From the NCBI GenBank assembly GCA_949299615.1, contig CASGBM010000002.1, positions 1 through 45,724 of the forward strand: DNA of 45,724 nt, read 5' to 3'. The stretch is from an uncultured Eubacteriales bacterium (GTDB lineage: Bacteria > Bacillota > Clostridia > UBA1381 > UBA9506). Position numbers and translations under genes: made by a program. Numbering within the stretch: position 1 is the first letter of the stretch; every line of letters starts with the position of its first letter. Under the pieces are notes generated by a model, which searched no databases, had not been told where the DNA came from, and saw only the letters and a program-made list of their open reading frames with translations. This document shows, one piece after another, positions 6,011 to 28,432 of this stretch.

Positions 6011-6038
6011 ATTATATCAATTTTTAAAAATTTGTCAA
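6011..6038 (-). promoter_or_regulatory. Sigma-A-type promoter of acn-icd-rex
   Basis: On the minus strand TTGACA (6033-6038), a 16-base spacer and TATAAT (6011-6016). This would start transcription about 55 bases ahead of acn. No Rex operator is visible in it. Confidence 0.8.
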
Positions 6039-6122
6039 GAAATTATCAACGCATTTCCCGTGCGGAAAACAGAATCAAGCGCCCGTTTTCCTCCGCGGTA
6101 TCCGGCAGAAAAGCAGGCGCGT

Positions 6123-13854: not shown

Positions 13855-14655
13855 CTATTCTTCTCCGCGCTTTTTAAACTCAATCACGTGTCTCGGGCAT
13901 TTAGACGCGCAGATTCCGCAGTTTACGCACTTATCATAATCGATTTTCGCAATATTATCCACAACGTGGATTGCGTCTTTCGGGCAATTCTTTTCACAGA
14001 TTTTACAGCCGATACAACCCGCCTGGCAAATATCTTTAATCACAACGCCTTTTTCTTTCGAGCGGCAGACCACAAACGTCCGCTGTTTTGCCGGGACAAG
14101 CTCGATGATCCGCTTCGGGCAGGTGGAAACACACGCACCGCATCCTGTACATTTGTCCCGGTCCACATGCGCTACGCCGTCGATGACATGAATTGCATCA
14201 AACAGACAGGCGCGCACACAGCTGCCATATCCCGTACAGCCGTACAGGCAGGTTTTTTCTCCGCCGCCGAACCGGTACACCGCCACACAATCCGTAATCC
14301 CGTCGTATTGATATTTTACCGATGTTTTGTCACACGTGCCGCTGCAAAGGACTTTTGCAACCATTTTTTCGCCGTCCTCCACCGAAACACCCATGATTTC
14401 TGCAATTTGATGGATATTTTCTTTTTTCGTGCTGGGACAGGCAGAAGGGTTTGCTTTTCCTGCCACAACTGCCTCGGCAAACGCCGAACAGCCGGCATAA
14501 CCGCAGCCGCCGCAGTTTGCGCCCGCCAAAAGCTCCTGCACCTGTTCAATGCGCTCATCTTTTTCCACCCGGAACGCCTTTGCCGCAACGCCGAGTAGCG
14601 CGCCGAACACCAGCCCCATAACTCCGAGAACTATAACCGGAATGATGATTTCCAT
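13855..14655 (-). CDS. rnfB: Rnf complex iron-sulfur subunit RnfB
   Basis: 266 residues. An N-terminal membrane anchor (residues 3-27) is followed by a [4Fe-4S] domain with Cys48, Cys51, Cys56 and Cys73 (NCGGCGYAGC ... CP). Several ferredoxin-type C-x2-C-x2-C-x3-CP motifs then run to the C terminus (CTGCGACVSTCP, CIGCKICEKNCP, CVNCGICASKCP, plus an atypical CLYGCTGYGSCVRAC). RnfB is the likely entry point for electrons from reduced ferredoxin. It starts 12 bases after rnfA with AAGGAGG. Confidence 0.95.
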   Translation of the reverse strand: MEIIIPVIVLGVMGLVFGALLGVAAKAFRVEKDERIEQVQELLAGANCGGCGYAGCSAFAEAVVAGKANPSACPSTKKENIHQIAEIMGVSVEDGEKMVAKVLCSGTCDKTSVKYQYDGITDCVAVYRFGGGEKTCLYGCTGYGSCVRACLFDAIHVIDGVAHVDRDKCTGCGACVSTCPKRIIELVPAKQRTFVVCRSKEKGVVIKDICQAGCIGCKICEKNCPKDAIHVVDNIAKIDYDKCVNCGICASKCPRHVIEFKKRGEE

Positions 14656-14667
14656 GTACCTGCCTCC

Positions 14668-15255
14668 TTAAAATTTCAAACCCTGGAATCCTAAAAACGC
14701 CATGGCGATCAGCCCCGCCGTAATCAGCGCGATCGGGAACCCCTGCAACGGTTTCGGAATGTCTGAGGTTTCCAGCCGCTCGCGCACGCCGGCAAACAGC
14801 ACAATCGCCAGCATGAACGAAATCCCGCCGGAAAAGCCGAACACAACCGAATGGATAAAATCGTACTGTTCCTGCACATTTAAAAGCGCAACGCCCAGCA
14901 CGGCGCAGTTTGTCGTTATCAGCGGGAGATAAATCCCCAGCGCATTATAAAGCGACGGGCTGAATTTTTGAATAACCATCTCCACAAACTGCACCAGCAC
15001 GGCGATCACCAAAATAAACGCCACCGTCTGCATATAGCCGATTCCGAGCGCATCCAGCAAAAAGACCTGCACGAGGTAGGTGCACGCGGAAGCCACCGTC
15101 ATGACAAACGTAACCGCCAGGCTCATCCCCACCGCGGTTTCCACTTTTTTTGAAACACCGAGAAAGGGGCAGATCCCGAGGAATTTTACCAATACAAAAT
15201 TGTTTACTAATATCGTACTCAAAGAAAGCAAGACCAATTCCACAAGCAAGCTCAT
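14668..15255 (-). CDS. rnfA: Rnf complex membrane subunit RnfA
   Basis: 195 residues with six hydrophobic segments, homologous to RnfE/NqrD/NqrE. The conserved [18 protein letters not shown] near residue 18 includes the Cys of the membrane-embedded iron-sulfur centre shared between RnfA and RnfE. Its ATG overlaps the rnfE stop by 4 bases, implying translational coupling. Confidence 0.95.
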
Positions 15256-15860
15256 TCTTTTGCGCCCCCTTTCTCCTTCCGGCTGCGGATCAGGTTAATG
15301 CCGCCGATTAAAAGCCCCAGCACCATAAACGCTCCCGGAGGAAGAATTAAAATCGTCGCAGGGGAAAAACCGCTGCCAAAGACCGAGATTCCTAAAAATG
15401 TACCGTTTCCTAATATCTCGCGGATGGCGCTGATAATTGTGAGCGCGCCGGTAAAGCCCAGCCCGATTCCCAAGCCGTCGAGCGCAGAATTTCCGACCGT
15501 GTTTTTTGACGCGAACGCCTCGGCGCGCGCCAAAATAATACAGTTTACCACGATCAGCGGGATAAACAGCCCCAGCGATTTTGCAATGTCCGGCAAAAAT
15601 GCTTTTAAAAGCATTTCAATCGCGCTGACAAAGCCGGCGATAATGACAATATAAGAAGCAATTCGTATTTTATTCGGAATGAATTTGCGGCACAGCGAAA
15701 TTACGATATTTGACGCTACCAATACCGCCGTGGCAGAAAGCCCCATCCCGATCCCGTTTGTTATGCTTGTTGTTACGGCAAGGGTCGGACACATGCCCAA
15801 AAGCAGGACAAACGTCGGGTTTTCCTGAATCAGCCCTTTGGTAAATTCTTTTATCTGCAT
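15252..15860 (-). CDS. rnfE: Rnf complex membrane subunit RnfE
   Basis: 202 residues with six membrane segments. It carries the paired motif [17 protein letters not shown] near residue 15 and the internal-repeat counterpart [13 protein letters not shown] near 115. It works with RnfA in moving electrons across the membrane. The start follows GGGAGGG, 13 bases after rnfG. Confidence 0.95.
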
Positions 15861-15873
15861 CCTGCGTCCCTCC

Positions 15874-16446
15874 CTACTGTAAATTTTTCACGGCATCTAC
15901 GGCGGCATTTACGCCCTCCGTCACCGCGTTTGACGTAATGGTCGCGCCGGAGATTGCCACAACTTCATTGTCTTTCGGCGTACCGCTTTTAATCACAGAA
16001 AGCGGATCTTTTACCGTTTTCCCATCAAACTGATCTTTAAATTTCGGCTCCTGTGCTTTCGAGCCCAGGCCCGGTGTTTCCGACAGAGAAACGATTTTGA
16101 TTCCTGTAAGCGTTTCATCCGGCTTTACGCCGACCATAATTTCAATCGCGCCGCCAAAGCCATTCGGGCTGACGCTCACGCAATAGCCGATCCGCTCTCC
16201 GGATGCGTCTTTTGCCGCATAAATTTCTTTCACGGGGACAGCCTGCTCCGCAAGGCCTGTCTCAATTTTTTCAAACTCTGCCGCGTCCGCCATAACCTCC
16301 TGGCGCGCCGCGGTTTGCTCTTTTTCGGTATTTTCTGCGATTTTCTGCTCCGTTACATCATTGGTAAAAGCCAAAAGCAGCGCCACCACAGCAGTAATGG
16401 CGAACAGGATCCCTGCCAGCACGATGGGGTTTTCATTTTTCTGCAT
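15874..16446 (-). CDS. rnfG: Rnf complex flavoprotein subunit RnfG
   Basis: 190 residues from the ATG at 16446, which has AGGAGG 8 bases upstream and overlaps the end of rnfD by 14 bases; upstream in-frame starts lack a site. One N-terminal membrane segment (residues 8-28) is followed by an extracytoplasmic FMN-binding domain. The covalent FMN-threonine motif is SGAT at residues 166-169. ApbE-type flavin transferase, needed for attachment, is not encoded in this window. Confidence 0.93.
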   Translation of the reverse strand: MQKNENPIVLAGILFAITAVVALLLAFTNDVTEQKIAENTEKEQTAARQEVMADAAEFEKIETGLAEQAVPVKEIYAAKDASGERIGYCVSVSPNGFGGAIEIMVGVKPDETLTGIKIVSLSETPGLGSKAQEPKFKDQFDGKTVKDPLSVIKSGTPKDNEVVAISGATITSNAVTEGVNAAVDAVKNLQ

Positions 16447-17428
16447 TCTTGCCGCCTCCTTTTGCCACTGTGCCAAACGTTTTCGGCCGGCAGTATTTAT
16501 CAATCAGCGGCGTTGCAATATTCATCAGCAAAATCGCGTAGGAAACGCCTTCCGGATAGCCGCCGAATTTTCGTATAATAAACGTAATCACCCCACAGCC
16601 GATTCCCATAATGACCTGACCCTTTGCCGTCATCGGCGAGGTCACGTAATCTGTCGCCATGAAAATCGCACCTAAAAACAAGCCGCCGCCCAAGAGGTTA
16701 TAGAGCATGCTGTCAAACGCGCTCAAATCCCCGGACGAGAACAAAAAGGTCAGCACTGCTACCGTGCCGATAAAGCAAAGCGGGATCCGCGGGCTGATCA
16801 CCTTGCGGATGACGAGGTAAATTCCGCCCAAAAGCAGCGCAAGCGCCGAGGTTTCCCCCATGCAACCGCCGATGTTTCCCAAAAACATATCCAGAAGGGA
16901 AGGAAACTCCCCCTCCGCCGTTCCTTTTAAAATCGCGAGCGGCGTTGCGCTGCTGACCAAATCCGGTGCAACCGTAAATCCTGTGGTAAACGGAAGCACC
17001 CAGCGCGTCATCAAAACCGGCCAGGAGGCGAGCAAAAACGCCCTGCCAGCCAGGGCAGGATTGACAAAATTATGCCCCGTTCCGCCGAACAATTGCTTTG
17101 CAATGATGATTGCCACAAACGAACCAACTACCATCATCCACCACGGCGCTGTGACCGGCACGTTCATTGCCAAAAGCACGCCTGTCACCACAGCGGTCCC
17201 ATCGGATATGGTCACCGGCTTTTTCGTTATTTTCTGCCACAAAAACTCAAACCCCACGCACGAAAGCACCGTGACCGCCACCAAAAACAGCGCGCGGAAG
17301 CCAAAATAAACCACGCCGCACAAAAGCGCCGGCACAAGCGCAATCAGCACATCGCGCATAATGACCGAGGTTGTCTCTTTCGACCGGATATGCGGCGACG
17401 AGGATACCACCAATAATTGATCAGCCAT
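16433..17428 (-). CDS. rnfD: Rnf complex membrane flavoprotein RnfD
   Basis: 331 residues with about nine membrane segments. The FMN attachment threonine is Thr162 in SSATPLA. TDYVTSPMT near residue 255 and GGTGHNFVNPALAGRAF near 115 are standard RnfD/NqrB segments. It forms part of the ion-translocating core. It overlaps the rnfC stop by 8 bases. Confidence 0.95.
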   Translation of the reverse strand: MADQLLVVSSSPHIRSKETTSVIMRDVLIALVPALLCGVVYFGFRALFLVAVTVLSCVGFEFLWQKITKKPVTISDGTAVVTGVLLAMNVPVTAPWWMMVVGSFVAIIIAKQLFGGTGHNFVNPALAGRAFLLASWPVLMTRWVLPFTTGFTVAPDLVSSATPLAILKGTAEGEFPSLLDMFLGNIGGCMGETSALALLLGGIYLVIRKVISPRIPLCFIGTVAVLTFLFSSGDLSAFDSMLYNLLGGGLFLGAIFMATDYVTSPMTAKGQVIMGIGCGVITFIIRKFGGYPEGVSYAILLMNIATPLIDKYCRPKTFGTVAKGGGKNAEK

Positions 17429-18764
17429 TTTTGTTCCCCCTTGCCCTCTCTTTTGCTCTTTTAATCTGGAGCTGTTGTTTGCCCCAACGAATCGACTGTA
17501 CCAAGTGCCTCTGCGCCGGGCAGGTATACGAACAGCTGCCGCATTCGATACAATCCATCAAGTGATATTTTTCACACTGCTCCAAATTTTTGCGGATAGA
17601 ATGTGCGCTCAGCATCGCCGGAATCAAATTCATCGGGCAAACCTCCACGCACTTCCCGCACCGGATACAGTTCGACGTCGAACGGATCGAAACTTCACTT
17701 TCCGTAAACGCCAAAATCCCGGACGTCCCTTTTACCACCGGCACATCCAGCGAATATCCGCTAATTCCCATCATGGGACCGCCCATCACAATTTTTTTCG
17801 GTTCCTCGGTAAATCCGCCCGCCTGCTCGATGACATAACGAAACGGCGTACCGATCCGCACCCGAAAGTTAGCCGGATGTTTTACCGCGCCGCCGGCAAC
17901 GGTGACCACCCGCCGCATGAGCGGCAGACCAAGGCGCACAGCGCGGGAAATTTCCACCGCCGTATCCACGTTAATCACCACACAGCCCACATCCATCGGC
18001 AGTCCGCCGGAAGGTACCTCGCGCCCGGTTACCGCACGGATCAGCTGTTTTTCCGCCCCCTGCGGATATTTTTTCGCAAGCGTAAGCACGTGGATTCCTT
18101 TTGCCTTTTCTGCGGCAGATGATATGGCAGAAATGGCGTCCGGTTTGTTTTCTTCAATCCCGATATATGCCTCATTAAGAGAAAAAATCTTCATCACTGC
18201 GCGCAGTCCGAAAATGACGTCTTCCGGCTGTTCGAGCATCACCCGGTGGTCTGATGTTAAATACGGCTCGCACTCAGCGCCGTTTACAATGATATATGTA
18301 ATCTTTTTCTCCGGCGGCGGCGAAAGCTTGACATGCGTCGGAAACCCTGCGCCCCCCATGCCGACAATACCGGCTTCGCGCACAAGCCCGACCAGTTCTT
18401 TCGGCGCTAGTTCCTCCAGTGTCTTCGTGTTCAGCGGCTCCTCCGGCGTATCTTTGCCGTCGTTTTCAATGACAATCGTCGGCATTTTTAAACCAGTCGG
18501 ATACAGATAAAGCCCAATGTCTTTTACCGTTCCCGAAACACTCGCATGCAGCGGCACGCTCATGTATGCGTCGCTGTCGGCAATTTTTTGCCCCATTTTG
18601 ACGGTATCGCCAACCGATACCAAAGAAGAAAGCGGCGCGCCGATGTGCTGCTGCATCGGAAAATACAGCGTATCCGGCGGCGCAAGCTCCCGGATGGGGA
18701 TTTGATTGGTGGCGGATTTGCTATCGTTTGGGTGGATTCCGCCCTTAAAGGTCAATTTTTGCAT
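17421..18764 (-). CDS. rnfC: Rnf complex NADH-binding subunit RnfC
   Basis: 447 residues. The order is an N-terminal barrel-like domain, an NADH/FMN-binding region (GMGGAGFPTHVK near residue 137; NGAECEPYLT), a SLBB segment, and two [4Fe-4S] motifs CIRCGKCVEVCP and CIECGSCSYTCP near 370-415. RnfC exchanges electrons with NAD+/NADH. It is the first gene of the operon. AAAGGA precedes the ATG. The 5' leader holds a Rex-type operator at 18797-18814 and a terminator-like hairpin at 18821-18850. Confidence 0.95.
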   Translation of the reverse strand: MQKLTFKGGIHPNDSKSATNQIPIRELAPPDTLYFPMQQHIGAPLSSLVSVGDTVKMGQKIADSDAYMSVPLHASVSGTVKDIGLYLYPTGLKMPTIVIENDGKDTPEEPLNTKTLEELAPKELVGLVREAGIVGMGGAGFPTHVKLSPPPEKKITYIIVNGAECEPYLTSDHRVMLEQPEDVIFGLRAVMKIFSLNEAYIGIEENKPDAISAISSAAEKAKGIHVLTLAKKYPQGAEKQLIRAVTGREVPSGGLPMDVGCVVINVDTAVEISRAVRLGLPLMRRVVTVAGGAVKHPANFRVRIGTPFRYVIEQAGGFTEEPKKIVMGGPMMGISGYSLDVPVVKGTSGILAFTESEVSIRSTSNCIRCGKCVEVCPMNLIPAMLSAHSIRKNLEQCEKYHLMDCIECGSCSYTCPAQRHLVQSIRWGKQQLQIKRAKERARGNKNG

Positions 18765-18796
18765 AAAAACCGTCCTTTCAGCCTGAAATATCCAAA

Positions 18797-18814
18797 TTGT
18801 GAATCATTTCACAT
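18797..18814 (-). promoter_or_regulatory. Rex-type operator in the rnf leader
   Basis: TTGTGAATCATTTCACAT on the plus strand holds both half-sites TGTGAA and TTCACA with a 4-base spacer, the classical Rex pattern (TTGTGAA-N4-TTCACAA). It lies 33 bases before the rnfC ATG. Confidence 0.65.
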
Positions 18815-18820
18815 TCTCTC

Positions 18821-18850
18821 AAAAAGACAAAAACGGCGCCGAAGCACCGT
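18821..18850 (-). terminator. Terminator-like hairpin inside the rnf leader
   Basis: On the minus strand ACGGTGC, loop TTCG, GCGCCGT, then TTTTTGTCTTTTT. It sits between the predicted promoter (18922-18950) and rnfC, so it could attenuate rnf transcription. The upstream methyltransferase gene already has its own terminator. Confidence 0.65.
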
Positions 18851-18921
18851 AATCATCCTCATTTTTCCGGCAGGACCGCCGCGTTGTCTTAAAAAGATAG
18901 GCGGTTGCCGAAACCATTCTT

Positions 18922-18950
18922 ATTATAATACAAAACTTTCTGTTTGGCAA
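18922..18950 (-). promoter_or_regulatory. Sigma-A promoter of the rnf operon
   Basis: On the minus strand TTGCCA (18945-18950), exactly 17 bases, TATAAT (18922-18927). It predicts a leader of about 150 bases. Confidence 0.75.
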
Positions 18951-19067
18951 TCCTTTTTCAAAACACAGCGGTTTTCGTGTTTTGTTTACGTGTACAAGCT
19001 TCATTTTTATTGTATGCTGCGAAAGGGAAAACATTCCATTCTCTTTGCGTTCCGTATTTTTATATGC

Positions 19068-19106
19068 AAAAATCAAAACGCCCGGCGCTATATCGTCAGG
19101 CGTTTT
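19068..19106 (-). terminator. Terminator of the UroD-family methyltransferase gene
   Basis: On the minus strand AAAACGCC, a 16-base loop and GGCGTTTT, followed by GATTTTTGC. Confidence 0.7.
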
Positions 19107-19127
19107 CTCTCTGCTGAAAAACAAGTT

Positions 19128-20147
19128 TTACTCGTGCGTATGATAATATTCCTCTACCGCGGCAAAAAATGCGTCAATATTCGTCCACGGCGAAAGCGGC
19201 GGAACATCGCAGCCGGTAGAGATGATAAAATTCGGGTATTTGCAGCATTTTTCCATGATGCCGAGCGTTGCCGCCCGAACCGATTCCGGCGTACCGTTTC
19301 TGATTTCTGCCGCTGGGTCAACGTTGCCCATGGCAATGATCCCTTCCGGAATATGGGTCATCATTTCTGCCATATCAATTGCGTTTCCAAAATGATAAGC
19401 GGAGGAACCAGTAGAAAGGATGGAGTCAATCATCCGAATCGTTCCGTCTCCGCAGTTGTGATAAATGACAATAAAATCATCGCTCTTGACCGCGTCAACG
19501 ATGCGTTTTACATACGGGCTGGAAAACTCTTCTGCCAGGTCCGGAGAAAGAAGGCCGGTGAGCGGCTCTGCCATCACGATACCGTGCGCGCCGACCGCTT
19601 TATACGCACGAATATAATCAATTAAAAATGCCGTCGTCTTGTCCATAATGGTATGTACCATTTCCGGTTCTTCATAGCAGTAAATCATCGCTTCTGTAAC
19701 GTCCATGAGCCTGCCCGCCAGGGAAAACGGACCGATCACTCCGGCAAAAACCGGACGGTCGGTAATCCTTTTTACCGCTTTTTCAATCGCTTCAATATAA
19801 ATTCCCGTGCGCCCTGCGCCCACTTTGGGAATTTCGAGCGCCTGTGCGCTTTCCAAATCGGAAACCACGCTGCCAACCACTGTCGGCACTTCATCATCAG
19901 AGACACGGATTTCAGATCCGAAGCATTCCGCCTCTACCGAAAGGTCCATCAAGCTGACGGACGCCGCTGATTTTGTGCGGTCGGCGACCGCTTTCATCCC
20001 GGTAGCCTGGGTGTCGCTGTTTGAGATTAAATCTTTTACGCTGATTCCCAGCAGCTGGATACTCGGAAAAGACAGCACCGGCATAGAAAGTTTGCGTTTT
20101 GCCTCCAGCTGCTCCGTGAGCCACTGTTTCATATTACGGTCTGACAT
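19128..20147 (-). CDS. Uroporphyrinogen-decarboxylase-family (corrinoid-type) methyltransferase
   Basis: 339 residues with the UroD TIM-barrel fold (GPFSLAGRLMDV near residue 150, GIVMAEPLTGLLSP near 205). Zinc-ligand-like residues H-x-C at YHNCGDG (near 240) and a later Cys in STGCDVPP (near 310) are those of the MtaA/MtbA-type methylcobamide methyltransferases, not of true haem-pathway UroD. It probably moves a methyl group between a corrinoid protein and a thiol or folate acceptor. No corrinoid protein or partner methyltransferase is adjacent, so the substrate is unknown. GGAGGAA precedes the ATG. It has a long upstream region and its own terminator. Confidence 0.75.
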   Translation of the reverse strand: MSDRNMKQWLTEQLEAKRKLSMPVLSFPSIQLLGISVKDLISNSDTQATGMKAVADRTKSAASVSLMDLSVEAECFGSEIRVSDDEVPTVVGSVVSDLESAQALEIPKVGAGRTGIYIEAIEKAVKRITDRPVFAGVIGPFSLAGRLMDVTEAMIYCYEEPEMVHTIMDKTTAFLIDYIRAYKAVGAHGIVMAEPLTGLLSPDLAEEFSSPYVKRIVDAVKSDDFIVIYHNCGDGTIRMIDSILSTGSSAYHFGNAIDMAEMMTHIPEGIIAMGNVDPAAEIRNGTPESVRAATLGIMEKCCKYPNFIISTGCDVPPLSPWTNIDAFFAAVEEYYHTHE

Positions 20148-22046: not shown

Positions 22047-23495
22047 TTATTTATCGATAATATGCAGCACGCTGATGGTATCTTTAATCTTCTTTTCCTT
22101 CGCCAGCATACCATATTGATCTACCAGGCTCTTGTCCTTGGGCTCATGCGTAAGGCACGCTGCGCCGCCGATGCAGCCGCCGACACAAGCCATTCCTTCA
22201 ATAAAGTTTTCTTTGAGTACGCCTTTTTTCTCTTTTAAAAGAGCAATCCGGCACTGCTCAATCCCGTCGCAGACCGCCGCATGCAAACGGAATTGCTCCT
22301 CGGTGATCCCGTGTTCGGAAAGCGCCTGCGCTACAGCATCGGACAAACCGCCGCTGCGAGCAAAAATCCGTCCGAAATAGGATGCGTTGTCTAAAATGTC
22401 TTCCTCCAGCTCAGACAGCTCAATATCGCGGCTGTCGATCATCGCTTGCAGTTCTTCAAACGTCAGGACGCAGTCCATAATCCCGGCAAGCTCTTCTTTT
22501 TGATATTCCATTTTCTTTGCCGTACAGGGCCCGATAAAGATCGTTTTGCAGTCTGGGTGCGACGCTTTGATATATTTCGCAATTTCCATCATCGGAGATA
22601 TGTTGTGCGAAACGATCGGTTTGAGTTCCGGAAAACTTTTTTCTATGTACGATACAAAAGCCGGGCAGCAAGAGCTGGTCAGCTTTCCTTTTTCTGCCAG
22701 TTCCGCCGCTTCTTTATACGCAACCATATCGGCGCCGAGCGCCGCTTCTACAACGCTGTAAAAACCAAGTTTTTTCAGCCCGGTGACAACCTGTCCGATT
22801 TTGGCATAGGAAAACTGTGCGCTGATGGACGGGGCGATAATGGCATAGACCTGATATTTGCTGTTATTTTCGGATTCTTTTAAAATTCGGATGGCGTCTG
22901 TGATAAACGACTTATCTACGATAGCGCCAAACGGGCATTGATAGACGCAGGCGCCGCAGGAAATACAGATTTCGTTATCAATTTTCGCCTTTTTATTTTC
23001 ATCCATATGGATCGCGTTGATTTTGCAGGCATTTTCACAGGGGCGCACCGAGTGCTTAATGGCAGAAAACGGGCAGACAGATGCGCATTTGCCGCATTCA
23101 ATGCACTTATCATAATCAATCTGCGCCTTTTGGTTTACAATGGTAATCGCGCCGACGGGGCAATTATTCTCACAGCGGTGTGCAATACAGCCGCGGCAGG
23201 AATCGCCGACGGAGTAGCTTTGTACCGGACATTCGTCGCAGGCAATGGAAAGCGTTTCGATCACGTTCGGGTTATTTTTATTGCCGCCGAGCGCCAGTTC
23301 AATGCGCTCTTCCACAATGGCGCGTTCTTTATAGATACAGCAGCGCATAGTAGCTTCGGGTCCTTCTACAATTTTCTGCGGAATTTCATAGTGGCAGCGC
23401 TCTAGCTTATCTTCAAAAGCGTATCGCGCAACTTCTTTCAGCACTTTATACTTTAAAAGCTGCACATCCGTATCAAAAATGCGTGTTTTTTTCAT
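22047..23495 (-). CDS. [FeFe]-hydrogenase, multi-cluster monomer (group B-like)
   Basis: 482 residues. A Cys-rich N-terminal half binds several [4Fe-4S] clusters (CDEC near 86, CRGC-x4-C-x3-CP near 100-112, CIECGKCASVCP at 131, CENAC at 153, CISCGACVYQCP at 177). The H-cluster domain follows, with L1 SCCPAF (275-280), L2 PCTAKKME (323-330) and L3 MACVGGCIGGAA (435-446). The L1 Phe replaces the usual Trp, and L3 has GGAA where group A has GGGG, so group B is more likely. There is no [2Fe-2S] N-terminal domain. It probably oxidises ferredoxin to make H2. It is the last gene of the operon, 38 bases after the phosphatase. Confidence 0.85.
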   Translation of the reverse strand: MKKTRIFDTDVQLLKYKVLKEVARYAFEDKLERCHYEIPQKIVEGPEATMRCCIYKERAIVEERIELALGGNKNNPNVIETLSIACDECPVQSYSVGDSCRGCIAHRCENNCPVGAITIVNQKAQIDYDKCIECGKCASVCPFSAIKHSVRPCENACKINAIHMDENKKAKIDNEICISCGACVYQCPFGAIVDKSFITDAIRILKESENNSKYQVYAIIAPSISAQFSYAKIGQVVTGLKKLGFYSVVEAALGADMVAYKEAAELAEKGKLTSSCCPAFVSYIEKSFPELKPIVSHNISPMMEIAKYIKASHPDCKTIFIGPCTAKKMEYQKEELAGIMDCVLTFEELQAMIDSRDIELSELEEDILDNASYFGRIFARSGGLSDAVAQALSEHGITEEQFRLHAAVCDGIEQCRIALLKEKKGVLKENFIEGMACVGGCIGGAACLTHEPKDKSLVDQYGMLAKEKKIKDTISVLHIIDK

Positions 23496-23533: not shown

Positions 23534-24703
23534 TTAAAAATACATTACTTTCACATGTTTACCCATTTCCTCCAGCCGTTTGGTCAGCTCTTCAATCAGT
23601 TTCAGCTTCAGGCTGAAGCTAAGGGGCAGGCTGGGGTTTTGGTGCGCGGCGTTTTTTGCACGTCCCACAAAAAAATTGATGTCCGTTGCCTCTTCAAACA
23701 GCATCTGGGCTATCAGCGACGCGCCGTCGTGCTTATCGCGAAACTGCGTGTAAAAATCTGTGTTATTGGAAAAACTTTCGGCGATTTCCAGTACTTTTCC
23801 CAAAGTCAGCACGCCTTCTGTCACCAGGTCAATCCCCTCAATGTGGGCAATCGGCGGAATAGAAGGGTCCTCATAATTAATTTCCGTTTTAATCGGTTTG
23901 TTAAGGTATCGGCTGATGATATTCGACGTGGTGCCGCCGCAGACAATCCGCTTGCCTTCTTTGGAAAAATAAAGCTGCATCACTTTTTCATCATCTTCCG
24001 GGTTTACCGGCGGCCCGATGATCAGATTTACCAGCTGGCGCTCGCGGATACGCAGCGCGGCAATGGTGGTGTCATCGCCCGGCTTTTCCATGTACAAATC
24101 CTTGCAGGCTTCCCCAATCCGGCTTGCCATTGTCTGCGCAGACATGTCCGGCCGAAAATTACCCTCGGCAAACTCCGTCACCTGGGGCAGCTGCCAGCCG
24201 TAATTGAGCGTACGCTCAATCCCGGCGTGAATCACACCGTCGCTCATCAGGATAAACATATCACCCAGCTCACAATGAATGTGCGACTCACAAATGGTCT
24301 TGCCGCAAATCGTTTTTTTCTCCATTTCATAAGGAAACGCATGGCCGCCGCGCAGCAAAATCACGCTGGGGTTGTCAAACTGCACAAGATAGGCTTCTCT
24401 GCCATGATGCACCTGCAAAATAGTAAAGGTTGAATAGGCAACACCGCGCACCTGGCAAACCGGCAGCGTTTCCGCAATCGTTTCCACACAATCTTCAATC
24501 GGCATTCCGCTTGCCATCATCGTCCCGATAATTTTTGATGTCAGCGTAGAAAGGATATTCGCTTTCACGCCGCTGCCTAAACCATCTGCCAAAACGATCG
24601 TAAAATCATCTTCATAGCTGATGGTTTCCACCTTGTCCCCGCACAGCTGCTCGCCGTATTTATTTAAGCTGACATATCCGCTTTCCACAAACATATTATT
24701 CAT
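23534..24703 (-). CDS. SpoIIE/PP2C-type serine phosphatase linked to a sensory hydrogenase
   Basis: 389 residues. The N-terminal 210 residues form a PP2C/SpoIIE phosphatase fold: metal-binding DGLGSG near residue 40, MSDGVIHAG near 155, and PGDDTTIAAL near 213. The C-terminal 160 residues (from NLIIGPPVNPEDDEK) form a second domain I cannot name, also containing CGGTTSNI. The ATG at 24703 overlaps the sensory hydrogenase gene by 8 bases, so the two are translationally coupled. This supports a pathway in which the hydrogenase-like sensor controls dephosphorylation of a partner. No cognate kinase or anti-sigma factor is encoded nearby. Confidence 0.85.
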   Translation of the reverse strand: MNNMFVESGYVSLNKYGEQLCGDKVETISYEDDFTIVLADGLGSGVKANILSTLTSKIIGTMMASGMPIEDCVETIAETLPVCQVRGVAYSTFTILQVHHGREAYLVQFDNPSVILLRGGHAFPYEMEKKTICGKTICESHIHCELGDMFILMSDGVIHAGIERTLNYGWQLPQVTEFAEGNFRPDMSAQTMASRIGEACKDLYMEKPGDDTTIAALRIRERQLVNLIIGPPVNPEDDEKVMQLYFSKEGKRIVCGGTTSNIISRYLNKPIKTEINYEDPSIPPIAHIEGIDLVTEGVLTLGKVLEIAESFSNNTDFYTQFRDKHDGASLIAQMLFEEATDINFFVGRAKNAAHQNPSLPLSFSLKLKLIEELTKRLEEMGKHVKVMYF

Positions 24704-26402
24704 CGGAGGATCCCTCCACTGAAATCGCTTCTTTCAGTTTAGTGAGTGCGATTTTCGTTTCCGCTGTGGTTTCGCCCAAAAGCGATGCGATTTCCTGTAC
24801 AACGCGCATTTGTTTTTCAATGACCTTGTCCGCCGTATTCACTGTTTTTTGACGGATTTCATTTACTTTCTGCTCTTCCAGCTGCTCATCAGTAATATCT
24901 TTCATAATGCTGATAATCAGCTTATGCTCTTTATCGTACAAAATGGATTCTTTAACATATTTTTCATATTCCGCTAAATACCTTCGCTGTTCCATGCGCG
25001 TTTGACCGCTTGACAAAATTTCCAAATACGGCTTGGGATCAAGCACCTCTACCGCCGGCATGTTTTTCACCTGCAGCGAACCGGCAAGGTTAAACAGGCG
25101 TTTTGCCGCGCGGTTCATCTGCTGAATGTTGAGCTGATCGTCAAAAACAACGATCGCATTCGGCGTGAGCATAATGATTTTATCGGAAAAAGACTCCGCC
25201 TTTTCCATCATAAACGGCAGGCACATGCTCGGTTCGGCTTTTCCCAGGAAAACCGCCACCGCTTTTTCCCGGCAGGTTGCATAGCCGCAGGTACCGCAGT
25301 TTAGCTCGTGTTCCGGCTTCGTTTTTCCCATGCTTTCCAAAATCGCCGTAATCTGTTCTTCGCTCGGCATCACATGGCTTACGGTTGCCGGAGTAAAGTT
25401 CTGCGCAAGGTCAATCTTCGTCTCAATATTAAAATCATCGCGGCTTTTTGCTTCAAGCGGCTTGGCAAAATCGCGCAGCTTAATGGTGCAGTCCAGCATT
25501 TCTTCGCGATACCGGCGCACCATCGGCCCGTTAATGCAGCTGCCGCGGCAAATGCTCATTTCAACAAAACAATGGCTTAACTTTCCGCTGACAATGTTTT
25601 TTAAGGCGGCAATGCAGTCTTTTACGCCGTCAACGGCAAGATAGCGAAAATCGCTGCCGTCCGTATTCATGGACTCAATAATGCCGCCCGTTTCCGGGAA
25701 AAAGCGCGACATGCGCGTATCCTGTGTGACATCATCTGCCGGCGCAAGGTTTGTGTTTTCTTCAGCAAACCATTCTCTGAGCTCCTCATAGGTTAAAACG
25801 CAGTCAACCAGCCCCGGGTTTTCATCCGCCTCGTCCTTTTTGGAAATACAAGGACCGATAAATACAACATAAGCATTTGGATCTTCTTCTTTTATCATTT
25901 TTGCGTGCGCAAGCATCGGCGAAAGCACATGTGCAAGATAAGGGATTGCTTCCGGATAATATTTGCGCACAAGCAGGATCGTAGAATGGCAGCAGGTAGA
26001 AATAATCACGTCCTGGCTGGCGCTTGCTACCATCCGCTCGTATTCGCTTTTCACCACATAGGCTCCCTCTGCGGTTTCGCGCGCAGAATCAAAGCCCAGC
26101 TTGCGGAGCCAGCCTTCCATCTCTCCAAGGTCGCGCGCGTCAAAATCAACGATAAAAGACGGGGCAACGCTTGCGATTACACGCTTGCCGGCACGAATGG
26201 CGTCCTTTACTTTAGAAACGTCGTGGCGCACATCTTTTGCGTTTTGCGGACAGGCAACCACACAGCGGCCGCATAAAATACATTCCTGCGGCAGAATATT
26301 TGCCTGCTGGTCAGAAAACTGGATGGATTTGACCGGGCACTCGCGGATACACTTATGACAATTTTTACAGTTTGCCTTTTTAAGACCTAAAATTTGATTC
26401 AC
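24696..26402 (-). CDS. hydS: Sensory [FeFe]-hydrogenase with PAS domain (HydS-like, group C)
   Basis: 568 residues, GTG start with a GGGGGG site. Two ferredoxin-type clusters lie at residues 12-51 (CKNCHKCIRECP, CILCGRCVVACP). The H-cluster domain has L1 STCCH (135-139), L2 PCISKKDE (184-191) and L3 SICRGSC (283-289), all diverged from catalytic forms as in the group C proteins. An RnfB-like cluster motif CGTCGYATC-x16-C follows at 369-394. A PAS domain covers about 410-510, and a coiled-coil tail ends the protein. Group C proteins are thought to sense H2 or redox state. It is coupled to the phosphatase gene, so the PAS region may pass the signal to it. Confidence 0.85.
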   Translation of the reverse strand: MNQILGLKKANCKNCHKCIRECPVKSIQFSDQQANILPQECILCGRCVVACPQNAKDVRHDVSKVKDAIRAGKRVIASVAPSFIVDFDARDLGEMEGWLRKLGFDSARETAEGAYVVKSEYERMVASASQDVIISTCCHSTILLVRKYYPEAIPYLAHVLSPMLAHAKMIKEEDPNAYVVFIGPCISKKDEADENPGLVDCVLTYEELREWFAEENTNLAPADDVTQDTRMSRFFPETGGIIESMNTDGSDFRYLAVDGVKDCIAALKNIVSGKLSHCFVEMSICRGSCINGPMVRRYREEMLDCTIKLRDFAKPLEAKSRDDFNIETKIDLAQNFTPATVSHVMPSEEQITAILESMGKTKPEHELNCGTCGYATCREKAVAVFLGKAEPSMCLPFMMEKAESFSDKIIMLTPNAIVVFDDQLNIQQMNRAAKRLFNLAGSLQVKNMPAVEVLDPKPYLEILSSGQTRMEQRRYLAEYEKYVKESILYDKEHKLIISIMKDITDEQLEEQKVNEIRQKTVNTADKVIEKQMRVVQEIASLLGETTAETKIALTKLKEAISVEGSSDE

Positions 26403-26417
26403 AAATCATCCCCCCTG

Positions 26418-26663
26418 TTAACGGCAGGCGTCTAAGACGTATTTTTGAAACACCTCGTGCATGTTCTCCCGGTTTACGCCTAAAACCAACTCATCATCTA
26501 CCTTTACCGTCACGCCGTCCATGCATTTTCCCAGACAAAACGCGGCGGAAAGCTCCACTTTGTCCTGCAACTGGTTCTTTTCAATCAGTTCTTTAAACGT
26601 ATTGATGATGTCATACGACCCTTTTAAGTGGCAGGAACTGCCGATACACACACTAACGACCAT
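26418..26663 (-). CDS. Thioredoxin-like [2Fe-2S] ferredoxin
   Basis: 81 residues from the ATG at 26663, set by GGAGGAGG. Cys at CIGSSC (residues 6 and 11) and at CLGKC (near 45-50) form the [2Fe-2S] pattern of the NuoE/HydC-like thioredoxin-fold ferredoxins. It is first in the hydrogenase operon, 15 bases before the sensory hydrogenase, and probably passes electrons to or from it. Confidence 0.85.
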   Translation of the reverse strand: MVVSVCIGSSCHLKGSYDIINTFKELIEKNQLQDKVELSAAFCLGKCMDGVTVKVDDELVLGVNRENMHEVFQKYVLDACR

Positions 26664-26785
26664 TTTTCTTCCTCCTCCAAAGACAATTGGGCACTTTTTC
26701 ACCATTTTCATGCAGCGCCTGCGGGCGCGTGTTTTCATGTACGGCGCAACGTTTTAAGCGCCGCGCAAAAGCTATAATTACTCTC

Positions 26786-26814
26786 ATTATACAATATATT
26801 TCCCGCATTTTCAA
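26786..26814 (-). promoter_or_regulatory. Promoter of the hydrogenase operon
   Basis: On the minus strand TTGAAA (26809-26814), 17 bases, TATAAT (26786-26791): a near-consensus promoter about 120 bases before the first gene. Confidence 0.85.
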
Positions 26815-26817
26815 CAG

Positions 26818-26835
26818 CTGTGAAAAATTTAACAT
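26818..26835. promoter_or_regulatory. Rex-type operator at the hydrogenase promoter
   Basis: CTGTGAAAAATTTAACAT holds TGTGAA, 4 bases, TTAACA: one half-site of the TGTGAA type and one of the clostridial TTAACA type. It ends 3 bases from the -35 hexamer, a position where Rex would hinder RNA polymerase. ACAGCTGT, a palindrome, overlaps the -35 side (26814-26821). Confidence 0.6.
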
Positions 26836-26879
26836 ATAAAAACTTTTTTATTAAATATTTCTTAAATGCAGAAAATAAA

Positions 26880-26908
26880 TTGTATTCGCCAAAGGGATAT
26901 GATATAAT
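26880..26908 (+). promoter_or_regulatory. Promoter of the MATE operon
   Basis: TTGTAT (26880-26885), 17 bases, TATAAT (26903-26908), divergent from the hydrogenase promoter and about 90 bases before the MATE start. Confidence 0.75.
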
Positions 26909-26998
26909 AAAACAATCAGGAAAAAACTGGCGGTGCTTTTGCTGCACCGATTCATGATGGTGTGAAAACATGGGTTTTTAGAGGAGTGAGCGGCAAGC

Positions 26999-28432
26999 AT
27001 GAAAAACATTAACGATCTCGGCAGCGAAAAGCTGTCCCGGCTGATTGTCCGGTTATCCCTTCCTGCCATTTTGGGCATGGTTGTCAATCTGTTATATAAC
27101 ATCGTAGACCGGATTTTTGTCGGACAGCTGGGAAGCGAAGCGCTGGGAGCCATTACGGCGGTAGCGCCGTATATGACAATTTTAACCGGGTTTGCTGTTT
27201 TAGTTGGGACTGGCGCCGCCGCTCTGATTTCCATTAAATTGGGCGAGCGCAAACCCAAAACATCCGCACGTATTTTATCCACTTCGCTGGGTCTGCTTCT
27301 CATCCTCTCTGTGCTGATCATGATCCCGTCCTTTTTCCTTCAGGATGCGATTTTAAAACTTTCGGGCTCTGCGCATACGTCACAGATGATGGTGGATTAT
27401 GCAAAAGATTATCTGTTTGTGATCATCATCGGCGTTCCGTTCCAGCTGATCAGTCTGGGAATGGATCAGAATATGCGCGCAGAAGGAAACGCCAAGGCCG
27501 CGATGTATGCGATGGTTTTGGGCGCAGTTACAAACATTGTGTTAGATCCTGTTTTTATCTTTGGCTTTGGCATGGGGACGCGCGGCGCGGCGATTGCAAC
27601 TATAATCGGCCAGGCGATGACCTCTGCTTTTATTCTCATTTACTATTTCGGAAACCACAGCCATTTGAAAATCAATATGAAGCATTGCCGGTTTCGGTAC
27701 TCGTTTAAGATCATGTCGCTGGGCATGCCGCAGTTTTTAATTCAGCTCGCCAGCGGAGCAATTATGCTGGTATACAATAATAGTCTGGTGCGCTACGGCG
27801 TAATATTAGACGCAGAACGCGGCGCAGACGTTGCGCTTGCGGCGTTTGGCATTATCACGAGCGTTTCCATGGTGCTCCTCATGCCTCTTAACGGCCTCAG
27901 CCAGGGCATTCAGCCGATTATCGGCTATAACTATGGCGCGAAAAATTATCTTCGCGTGAAAAAAACTTTTTTGACTGCTGTCTTTTACGCGACCGTTTGG
28001 ATGACCCTTGGTTTTTTGGCGGCGGAAACAGTTCCGCGCTATATTTTTATGGCGTTTAACAACAAAGACCAGGACCTTTTAAATTTTGGTTCGCAGACGC
28101 TTCGGATCATTGCGATTTTCCTGCCTTTGGTCGGTTTCCAAACGCTGAGCTCCAACTACTTTCTTGCGGTAGGAAAGCCAAAGGCATCGATCTTTTTGAG
28201 CGTTTCGCGGCAAATTTTATTATTTATTCCCTTGATTTTATTATTGCCTCTGTTTTTGCCCGATCAACTTAAAATATATGGCGTCATCTGGGCTTCGCCC
28301 GTTGCCGACTTTTTATCGGCGGTGATTGCCGGAATATACATTTTATTTGAAATGAAGCGGCTCAGCCGCCTGGAGCAGGACCATTTAAAACGGATGCAGA
28401 AACAGCCGGTTCAAGAAGGTGCCGTCAAATGA
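26999..28432 (+). CDS. MATE-family efflux transporter
   Basis: 477 residues with twelve hydrophobic segments arranged as two MatE repeats (N-terminal PAILGMVVNLLYNIVDRIFVGQLG; the second begins near residue 235). Family members export cationic drugs or metabolites, driven by Na+ or H+. AGGAG precedes the ATG. The stop overlaps the next start as ATGA, so it is coupled to the CAP-domain gene. The substrate is unknown. Confidence 0.92.
   Translation: MKNINDLGSEKLSRLIVRLSLPAILGMVVNLLYNIVDRIFVGQLGSEALGAITAVAPYMTILTGFAVLVGTGAAALISIKLGERKPKTSARILSTSLGLLLILSVLIMIPSFFLQDAILKLSGSAHTSQMMVDYAKDYLFVIIIGVPFQLISLGMDQNMRAEGNAKAAMYAMVLGAVTNIVLDPVFIFGFGMGTRGAAIATIIGQAMTSAFILIYYFGNHSHLKINMKHCRFRYSFKIMSLGMPQFLIQLASGAIMLVYNNSLVRYGVILDAERGADVALAAFGIITSVSMVLLMPLNGLSQGIQPIIGYNYGAKNYLRVKKTFLTAVFYATVWMTLGFLAAETVPRYIFMAFNNKDQDLLNFGSQTLRIIAIFLPLVGFQTLSSNYFLAVGKPKASIFLSVSRQILLFIPLILLLPLFLPDQLKIYGVIWASPVADFLSAVIAGIYILFEMKRLSRLEQDHLKRMQKQPVQEGAVK

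Follow-up and report, generated by a model that had tools for sequence, protein, structure and literature searches.

Among the closest described arrangements is that of Ruminococcus albus, for which Zheng et al. 2014 are said to have described a HydS-HydA2 transcription unit with a PAS-bearing HydS beside a catalytic hydrogenase and a phosphatase. The unit was reportedly linked to an alcohol dehydrogenase and a redox-sensing repressor. A study of Thermoanaerobacterium saccharolyticum terms HfsB a homolog of the R. albus HydS and reports more ethanol upon deletion of hfsB, together with a correlated expression of adhE (PMC5707799). In the same organism, a Rex site is listed as predicted ahead of hfsABCD (Tsac_1550; PMC5886521, Table 5) and the link between Rex and hfs genes is, therefore, not new. 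Rex control of hydrogenases is supported by gel shifts in Caldicellulosiruptor bescii (PMC6391272) and by DAP-seq in Clostridium thermocellum, where the hydrogenase Clo1313_1885-81 is a target (PMC8457756). The regulons described in the sections of both reports that bear on hydrogenases include an [FeFe]-hydrogenase operon and rex, joined in C. thermocellum by isocitrate dehydrogenase and phosphofructokinase; no HydS-type operon is named there as a target (PMC8457756, PMC6391272). The terms for the C. thermocellum hfs genes (Clo1313_1793-1796) are likewise absent from the main text of the DAP-seq paper (PMC8457756). The literature searched, a set of papers with most subscription articles outside it, yielded no Rex binding test on an hfs-type operon.

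The window, by which we mean the whole 45,724-nucleotide stretch of DNA analysed here, comes from an uncultured Eubacteriales bacterium and carries on its minus strand an operon that resembles these systems. The promoter pairs a -35 element (TTGAAA, 26809-26814) with a -10 element (TATAAT, 26786-26791) across 17 bases, agrees with the sigma-70 consensus in 11 of its 12 positions and would start transcription near 26779. The first gene (26418-26663) encodes an 81-aa NuoE-like thioredoxin-fold 2Fe-2S protein, identified with PF01257 (run on the longer ORF, 26418-26738) and from orthologs; we set its start at the ATG behind GGAGGAGG within that longer ORF. It is followed by a HydS/HfsB-type [FeFe]-hydrogenase with a C-terminal FeS domain (24696-26402; PF02906, PF04060), a SpoIIE-type (PP2C-like), HfsC-like phosphatase (23534-24703; PF07228) and a monomeric HfsD/HydA2-like [FeFe]-hydrogenase (22047-23495; TIGR04105, 560 bits against a cut-off of 450). 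The sequence-only reading had spoken of a hydrogen-sensing operon, a description that fits the predicted gene set and domains, with four genes in the same direction that correspond to an hfsABCD/HydS set. The PAS_8 match in the window's HydS is weak (18.3 bits, under the 21.8 cut-off); a PAS domain is over the cut-off in the HydS ortholog of locus L078. No kinase gene was seen within the operon. The inferred 5' leader (26664-26779) could fold into two G+C-rich hairpins (GGCGC..GCGCC and GCGCC..GGCGC) for which there was no Rfam match. A tRNA was the sole Rfam match in the whole window and, thus, the leader holds no known riboswitch.

As is reported for R. albus, HydS in the window lies beside a catalytic hydrogenase and a phosphatase. 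Unlike the R. albus unit, however, the window's rex is about 20 kb away with the aconitase and isocitrate dehydrogenase genes, and adhE is on another contig. Two relatives come closer to the arrangement reported for R. albus: L078, with adhE, and L126, where hydS directly follows an alcohol dehydrogenase gene and two Rex-family genes, all in the same direction.

A candidate Rex operator adjoins the operon promoter at 26818-26835 and reads CTGTGAAAAATTTAACAT on the plus strand and ATGTTAAATTTTTCACAG on the operon strand. The initial claim was of a 16-mer, TGTGAA-AAAT-TTAACA, at 26819-26834; the sequence there is indeed TGTGAAAAATTTAACA and, because the -35 element occupies 26814-26809 of the minus strand, the 16-mer stops four bases ahead of it, as had been proposed. 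The candidate matches the 18-bp inverted repeat TGTKAANNNNTTMACA (TTGTKAA halves, 4-base spacer) at all specified positions, departs from the strict TTGTTAA form at three bases, the two outer ones and one inner one, and has three mismatches to the strict clostridial consensus TTGTTAANNNNTTAACAA. Its centre lies about 47 bases ahead of the inferred operon start, which leaves the core promoter uncovered. The predicted T. saccharolyticum site, TTGTTAATAAATTAACTA, is likewise a Rex-type palindrome upstream of an operon that encodes two [FeFe]-hydrogenases, one sensory-type and one catalytic, together with a sporulation-type phosphatase, but it is more symmetrical, of the TTGTTAA type, and listed at 78 bases ahead of the gene (PMC5886521). 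The window site, in contrast, has mixed TGTGAA/TTAACA halves, lies about 154 bases ahead of the operon's first ATG and stands against the -35.

From its sequence and setting, we consider it probable that 26818-26835 is the operator through which the genome's single Rex represses the hfs-like operon at low NADH/NAD+. In the proposed mechanism, a Rex dimer would occupy the operator when the ratio is low, prevent RNA polymerase from contacting the -35 next to it and keep expression of the operon low. A build-up of NADH, for example when H2 cannot escape, would release Rex and allow the cell to make HydS as the putative H2 sensor, the phosphatase that would partner it and the proton-reducing hydrogenase. 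Further candidates for this regulon (adhE, Fe-ADH, hydAB, rnf and acn-idh-rex) would be expressed as well, and the operon would rise along with other genes that dispose of NADH. As a computational prediction, the assignment of a Rex operator to the hfs-like operon is well supported; Rex binding, the response to NADH and repression as the sign of control are what we infer from it.

The sole Rex gene found in the genome is at 2047-2706 on the minus strand of the window, where the sequence-only reading had placed it, and was confirmed with the NCBIfam equivalog model NF003990 (318.6 bits, cut-off 233). The protein has an N-terminal winged helix and a C-terminal Rossmann NAD(H) domain, both over the cut-off (PF06971 and PF02629). 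It aligns over nearly its entire length with PDB 3WG9, which we take to be the Thermoanaerobacter Rex, and differs from it by one residue in the recognition stretch (residues 46-68, VTASQIRQDLNxFGGFGQQGYGY). We also considered an operator for a CRP/FNR-type regulator. The form TGTGA-N6-TCACA resembles the CRP/FNR motif, the candidate operator has one TGTGA half and the window's rnf site likewise forms a CRP-type palindrome. Against this, the sites in relatives are mostly of the TTGTTAA/TTGACAA type and the genome has no matches to the cNMP-binding domain PF00027 and none over the cut-off to the CRP-type helix PF13545 (three weak matches). The genome is 97.66% complete and, thus, a missing CRP/FNR gene is possible but unlikely. 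As such a protein was not found, we rejected this assignment as extremely improbable. A catabolite (cre) site is also unlikely, because the centre of the operator is without the CG step found at the centre of cre motifs.

The operator lies in a 335-base intergenic region that the hydrogenase operon has in common with a divergent MATE transporter gene (26999-28432, plus strand; promoter TTGTAT-17-TATAAT at 26880-26908) and could, in principle, serve the latter. The operator is, however, centred about 88 bases ahead of the start inferred for the MATE gene yet adjoins the hydrogenase -35, and in relatives the site tracks the hydS operon while the upstream neighbours differ. We therefore regard control of the MATE gene in place of the hydrogenase operon as very unlikely.

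Two further Rex-like sites, neither assigned to a strand, are present in the window. One (6032-6049) overlaps the -35 of a promoter that matches the consensus at 12 of 12 positions ahead of the aconitase, isocitrate dehydrogenase and rex genes, a position consistent with predicted Rex autoregulation. The other (18797-18814, TTGTGAATCATTTCACAT) is a near-perfect Rex-type palindrome about 32 bases ahead of rnfC in the rnfCDGEAB operon (13855-18764), which suggests possible NADH control of Rnf. Unlike the Rex regulons described for C. thermocellum and C. bescii, the motif in the window's genome also marks the rnf and mtrB-pfkA leaders. When scored with a Rex matrix built from ten sites (the rnf site included, the candidate operator excluded), the candidate operator reached 15.4 and ranked third within the 45.7-kb window, behind the acn-idh-rex (16.4) and rnf (16.0) sites. 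The ORF script placed sites 18798 and 26819 inside ORFs, both of which we judged spurious: 18546-19625 (plus strand, 359 aa) overlaps rnfC and a URO-D gene, and 26735-26971 (minus strand, 78 aa) is a short, unsupported frame. For the site on C86 the script assigned no gene, and the first gene start was located by eye near position 6955 of L049.

That the operator is a fortuitous match in AT-rich intergenic sequence is, in our estimate, improbable, although part of the evidence points that way. At the three mismatches that separate the operator from TTGTTAANNNNTTAACAA, the genome has 201 places against 454 for the control, which is no enrichment, and at one mismatch or less to TGTKAANNNNTTMACA signal and control are equal (25 each). 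Furthermore, when the 335-base intergenic region was shuffled 2000 times by dinucleotides, 7 of the shuffles reached the operator's matrix score. Exact matches to TGTKAANNNNTTMACA, on the other hand, number four in the 2.39-Mb genome against one for a reversed-pattern control, and none appeared in the 2000 shuffles of the intergenic region. All four stand in the leaders of genes with redox or glycolytic roles, namely ahead of rnfC, the hfs-like operon, the hydAB cluster and mtrB-DUF2007-pfkA. The site had been expected to rank among the top hits of a motif scan of the full genome, and its place among the four exact matches is broadly favourable to that expectation, with the genome-wide rank resting on pattern matches and the matrix ranking covering the 45.7-kb window. 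Of the 21 one-mismatch places, long ORFs contain 17 and the other 4 are intergenic, two of these ahead of adhE and an Fe-ADH. The match ahead of mtrB (TRAP)-DUF2007-pfkA (L047, about 2890-2939; G000:C80) belongs to a 12-base inverted repeat (AAATATTTCACA/TGTGAAATATTT), of which it makes up one arm, and may, for this reason, be a hairpin rather than a Rex site. By itself, the operator sequence is moderate evidence for a predicted Rex site; its place in the promoter region of redox and fermentation genes, next to the 11/12 promoter, and the company it keeps turn the evidence strong.

The HydS loci of relatives bear on the same question. Genome contigs yielded 47 loci in one scan, and 20 of 21 HydS-type loci of relatives were extended. 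L021 (G054), which carries TTGATTATTTTTTAACAA at -64, was left out of the count, and L106 was excluded as a duplicate of L068. In the 67 loci compared, window included, the 600 bases ahead of hydS contained a Rex-like site scoring at least 13 in 14 cases, against 1 of 67 with a control matrix. The threshold of 13 was chosen after two Anaerotruncus loci at 13.4 were known; at 14.5 or above there were 8 loci against 0, and at 16 or above, a score that the window site does not reach, 5 against 0. Sites were found in all seven of the Anaerotruncus/Marasmitruncus loci. Both this excess over the control and the matching position of the sites in relatives argue against chance. At the other 53 loci, which include those of most distant relatives, there was no site of this score within the 600 bases, and the predicted Rex-HydS link is therefore a lineage trait rather than a universal one. 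In L078, L079 and L126, a strong site is found at adhE or adh genes that precede hydS and share its direction.

Closer to the window's organism the picture is mixed. HydS is encoded by two of the four genomes examined in its genus, and in the congener (G002, HydS 77% identical), whose upstream region differs, no site occurs within 500 bases, an absence that favours a chance match. Thus, the expectation that the motif be retained in orthologous promoters held for the nearest named relatives, two of which have it at the same place by the -35, and failed in the sole operon-bearing congener. We assigned counterparts in relatives by their positions; in a MAFFT alignment of six promoters, the window operator fell out of register with the others. 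A separate block, ATTGAAAAA...TAGTATSCT, precedes the hydS operon in L107, L110, L127, L145 and L149 (there upstream of nuoE), all of the Anaerotruncus lineage, and is conserved beyond the level of an ordinary promoter. HydS genes about 46-50% identical to the window's also occur in contigs labelled as distant taxa (L118 and L119, Myxococcales MAG records; L134, a Coriobacteriaceae MAG), through either transfer or mislabelled bins. The HydS gene of L018 (G004:C10) contains one in-frame TAG.

The position of the sites also bears on the sign of control, because Rex could bind the operator not simply to repress but to activate or to block an activator. The upstream side of the -35 is a typical place for an activator, the operator being centred near -47 in the window, and the distance to the -35 varies in relatives. 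It is 1 base in A. massiliensis (TTGTTAAAGAATTAACAC ahead of TTGAAA-17-TATCCT), 0 in an Anaerotruncus MAG (TTGTTAAATGATTGACAA, same promoter), 31, or about three helical turns, in L107 and L110 (TTGAAA, score 13.4) and 67 in Marasmitruncus (TTGAAA). The -10 elements of relatives of the Anaerotruncus lineage are weak (TATCCT, TATGCT), and the Fe-ADH site of the window's genome also lies upstream of its own best promoter-like -35. The acn-idh-rex and adhE sites, by contrast, overlap the -35 or the start in the ordinary layout of a repressor. In two genomes labelled A. colihominis, the site directly follows a -10, which is a repressor's place. Furthermore, the window promoter matches the consensus so closely that an activator is not needed, and the Rex proteins treated in the relevant parts of the literature are mainly repressors (PMC5707799, PMC6391272, PMC8457756). 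Within the literature surveyed on Rex as an activator, Rex with Anaerotruncus and Rex with Rnf, no entry settles either the sign of control or the link to rnf. We hence regard activation or anti-activation as unlikely and repression by Rex as the preferred reading. A more elaborate and decidedly doubtful scheme would have Rex at the upstream edge of the -35 act as activator or anti-activator, so that the NADH sensor sets the level of an H2 sensor that in turn tunes adhE and the hydrogenases, in two layers of opposite sign.

The predicted hydrogen-sensor operon under a candidate Rex site would be a further case of the link predicted for hfsABCD in Table 5 of the T. saccharolyticum study (PMC5886521). 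Control of the hfs genes matters because, in T. saccharolyticum, deletion of hfsB raises ethanol with adhE in step (PMC5707799). The layout with the site next to the -35 is found in Anaerotruncus, which are cultured organisms. If the prediction is right, the H2 sensor of fermenting gut clostridia would itself be under NADH control, a connection that would tie together two readings of one redox bottleneck and bear on the yields of H2, ethanol and acetate.
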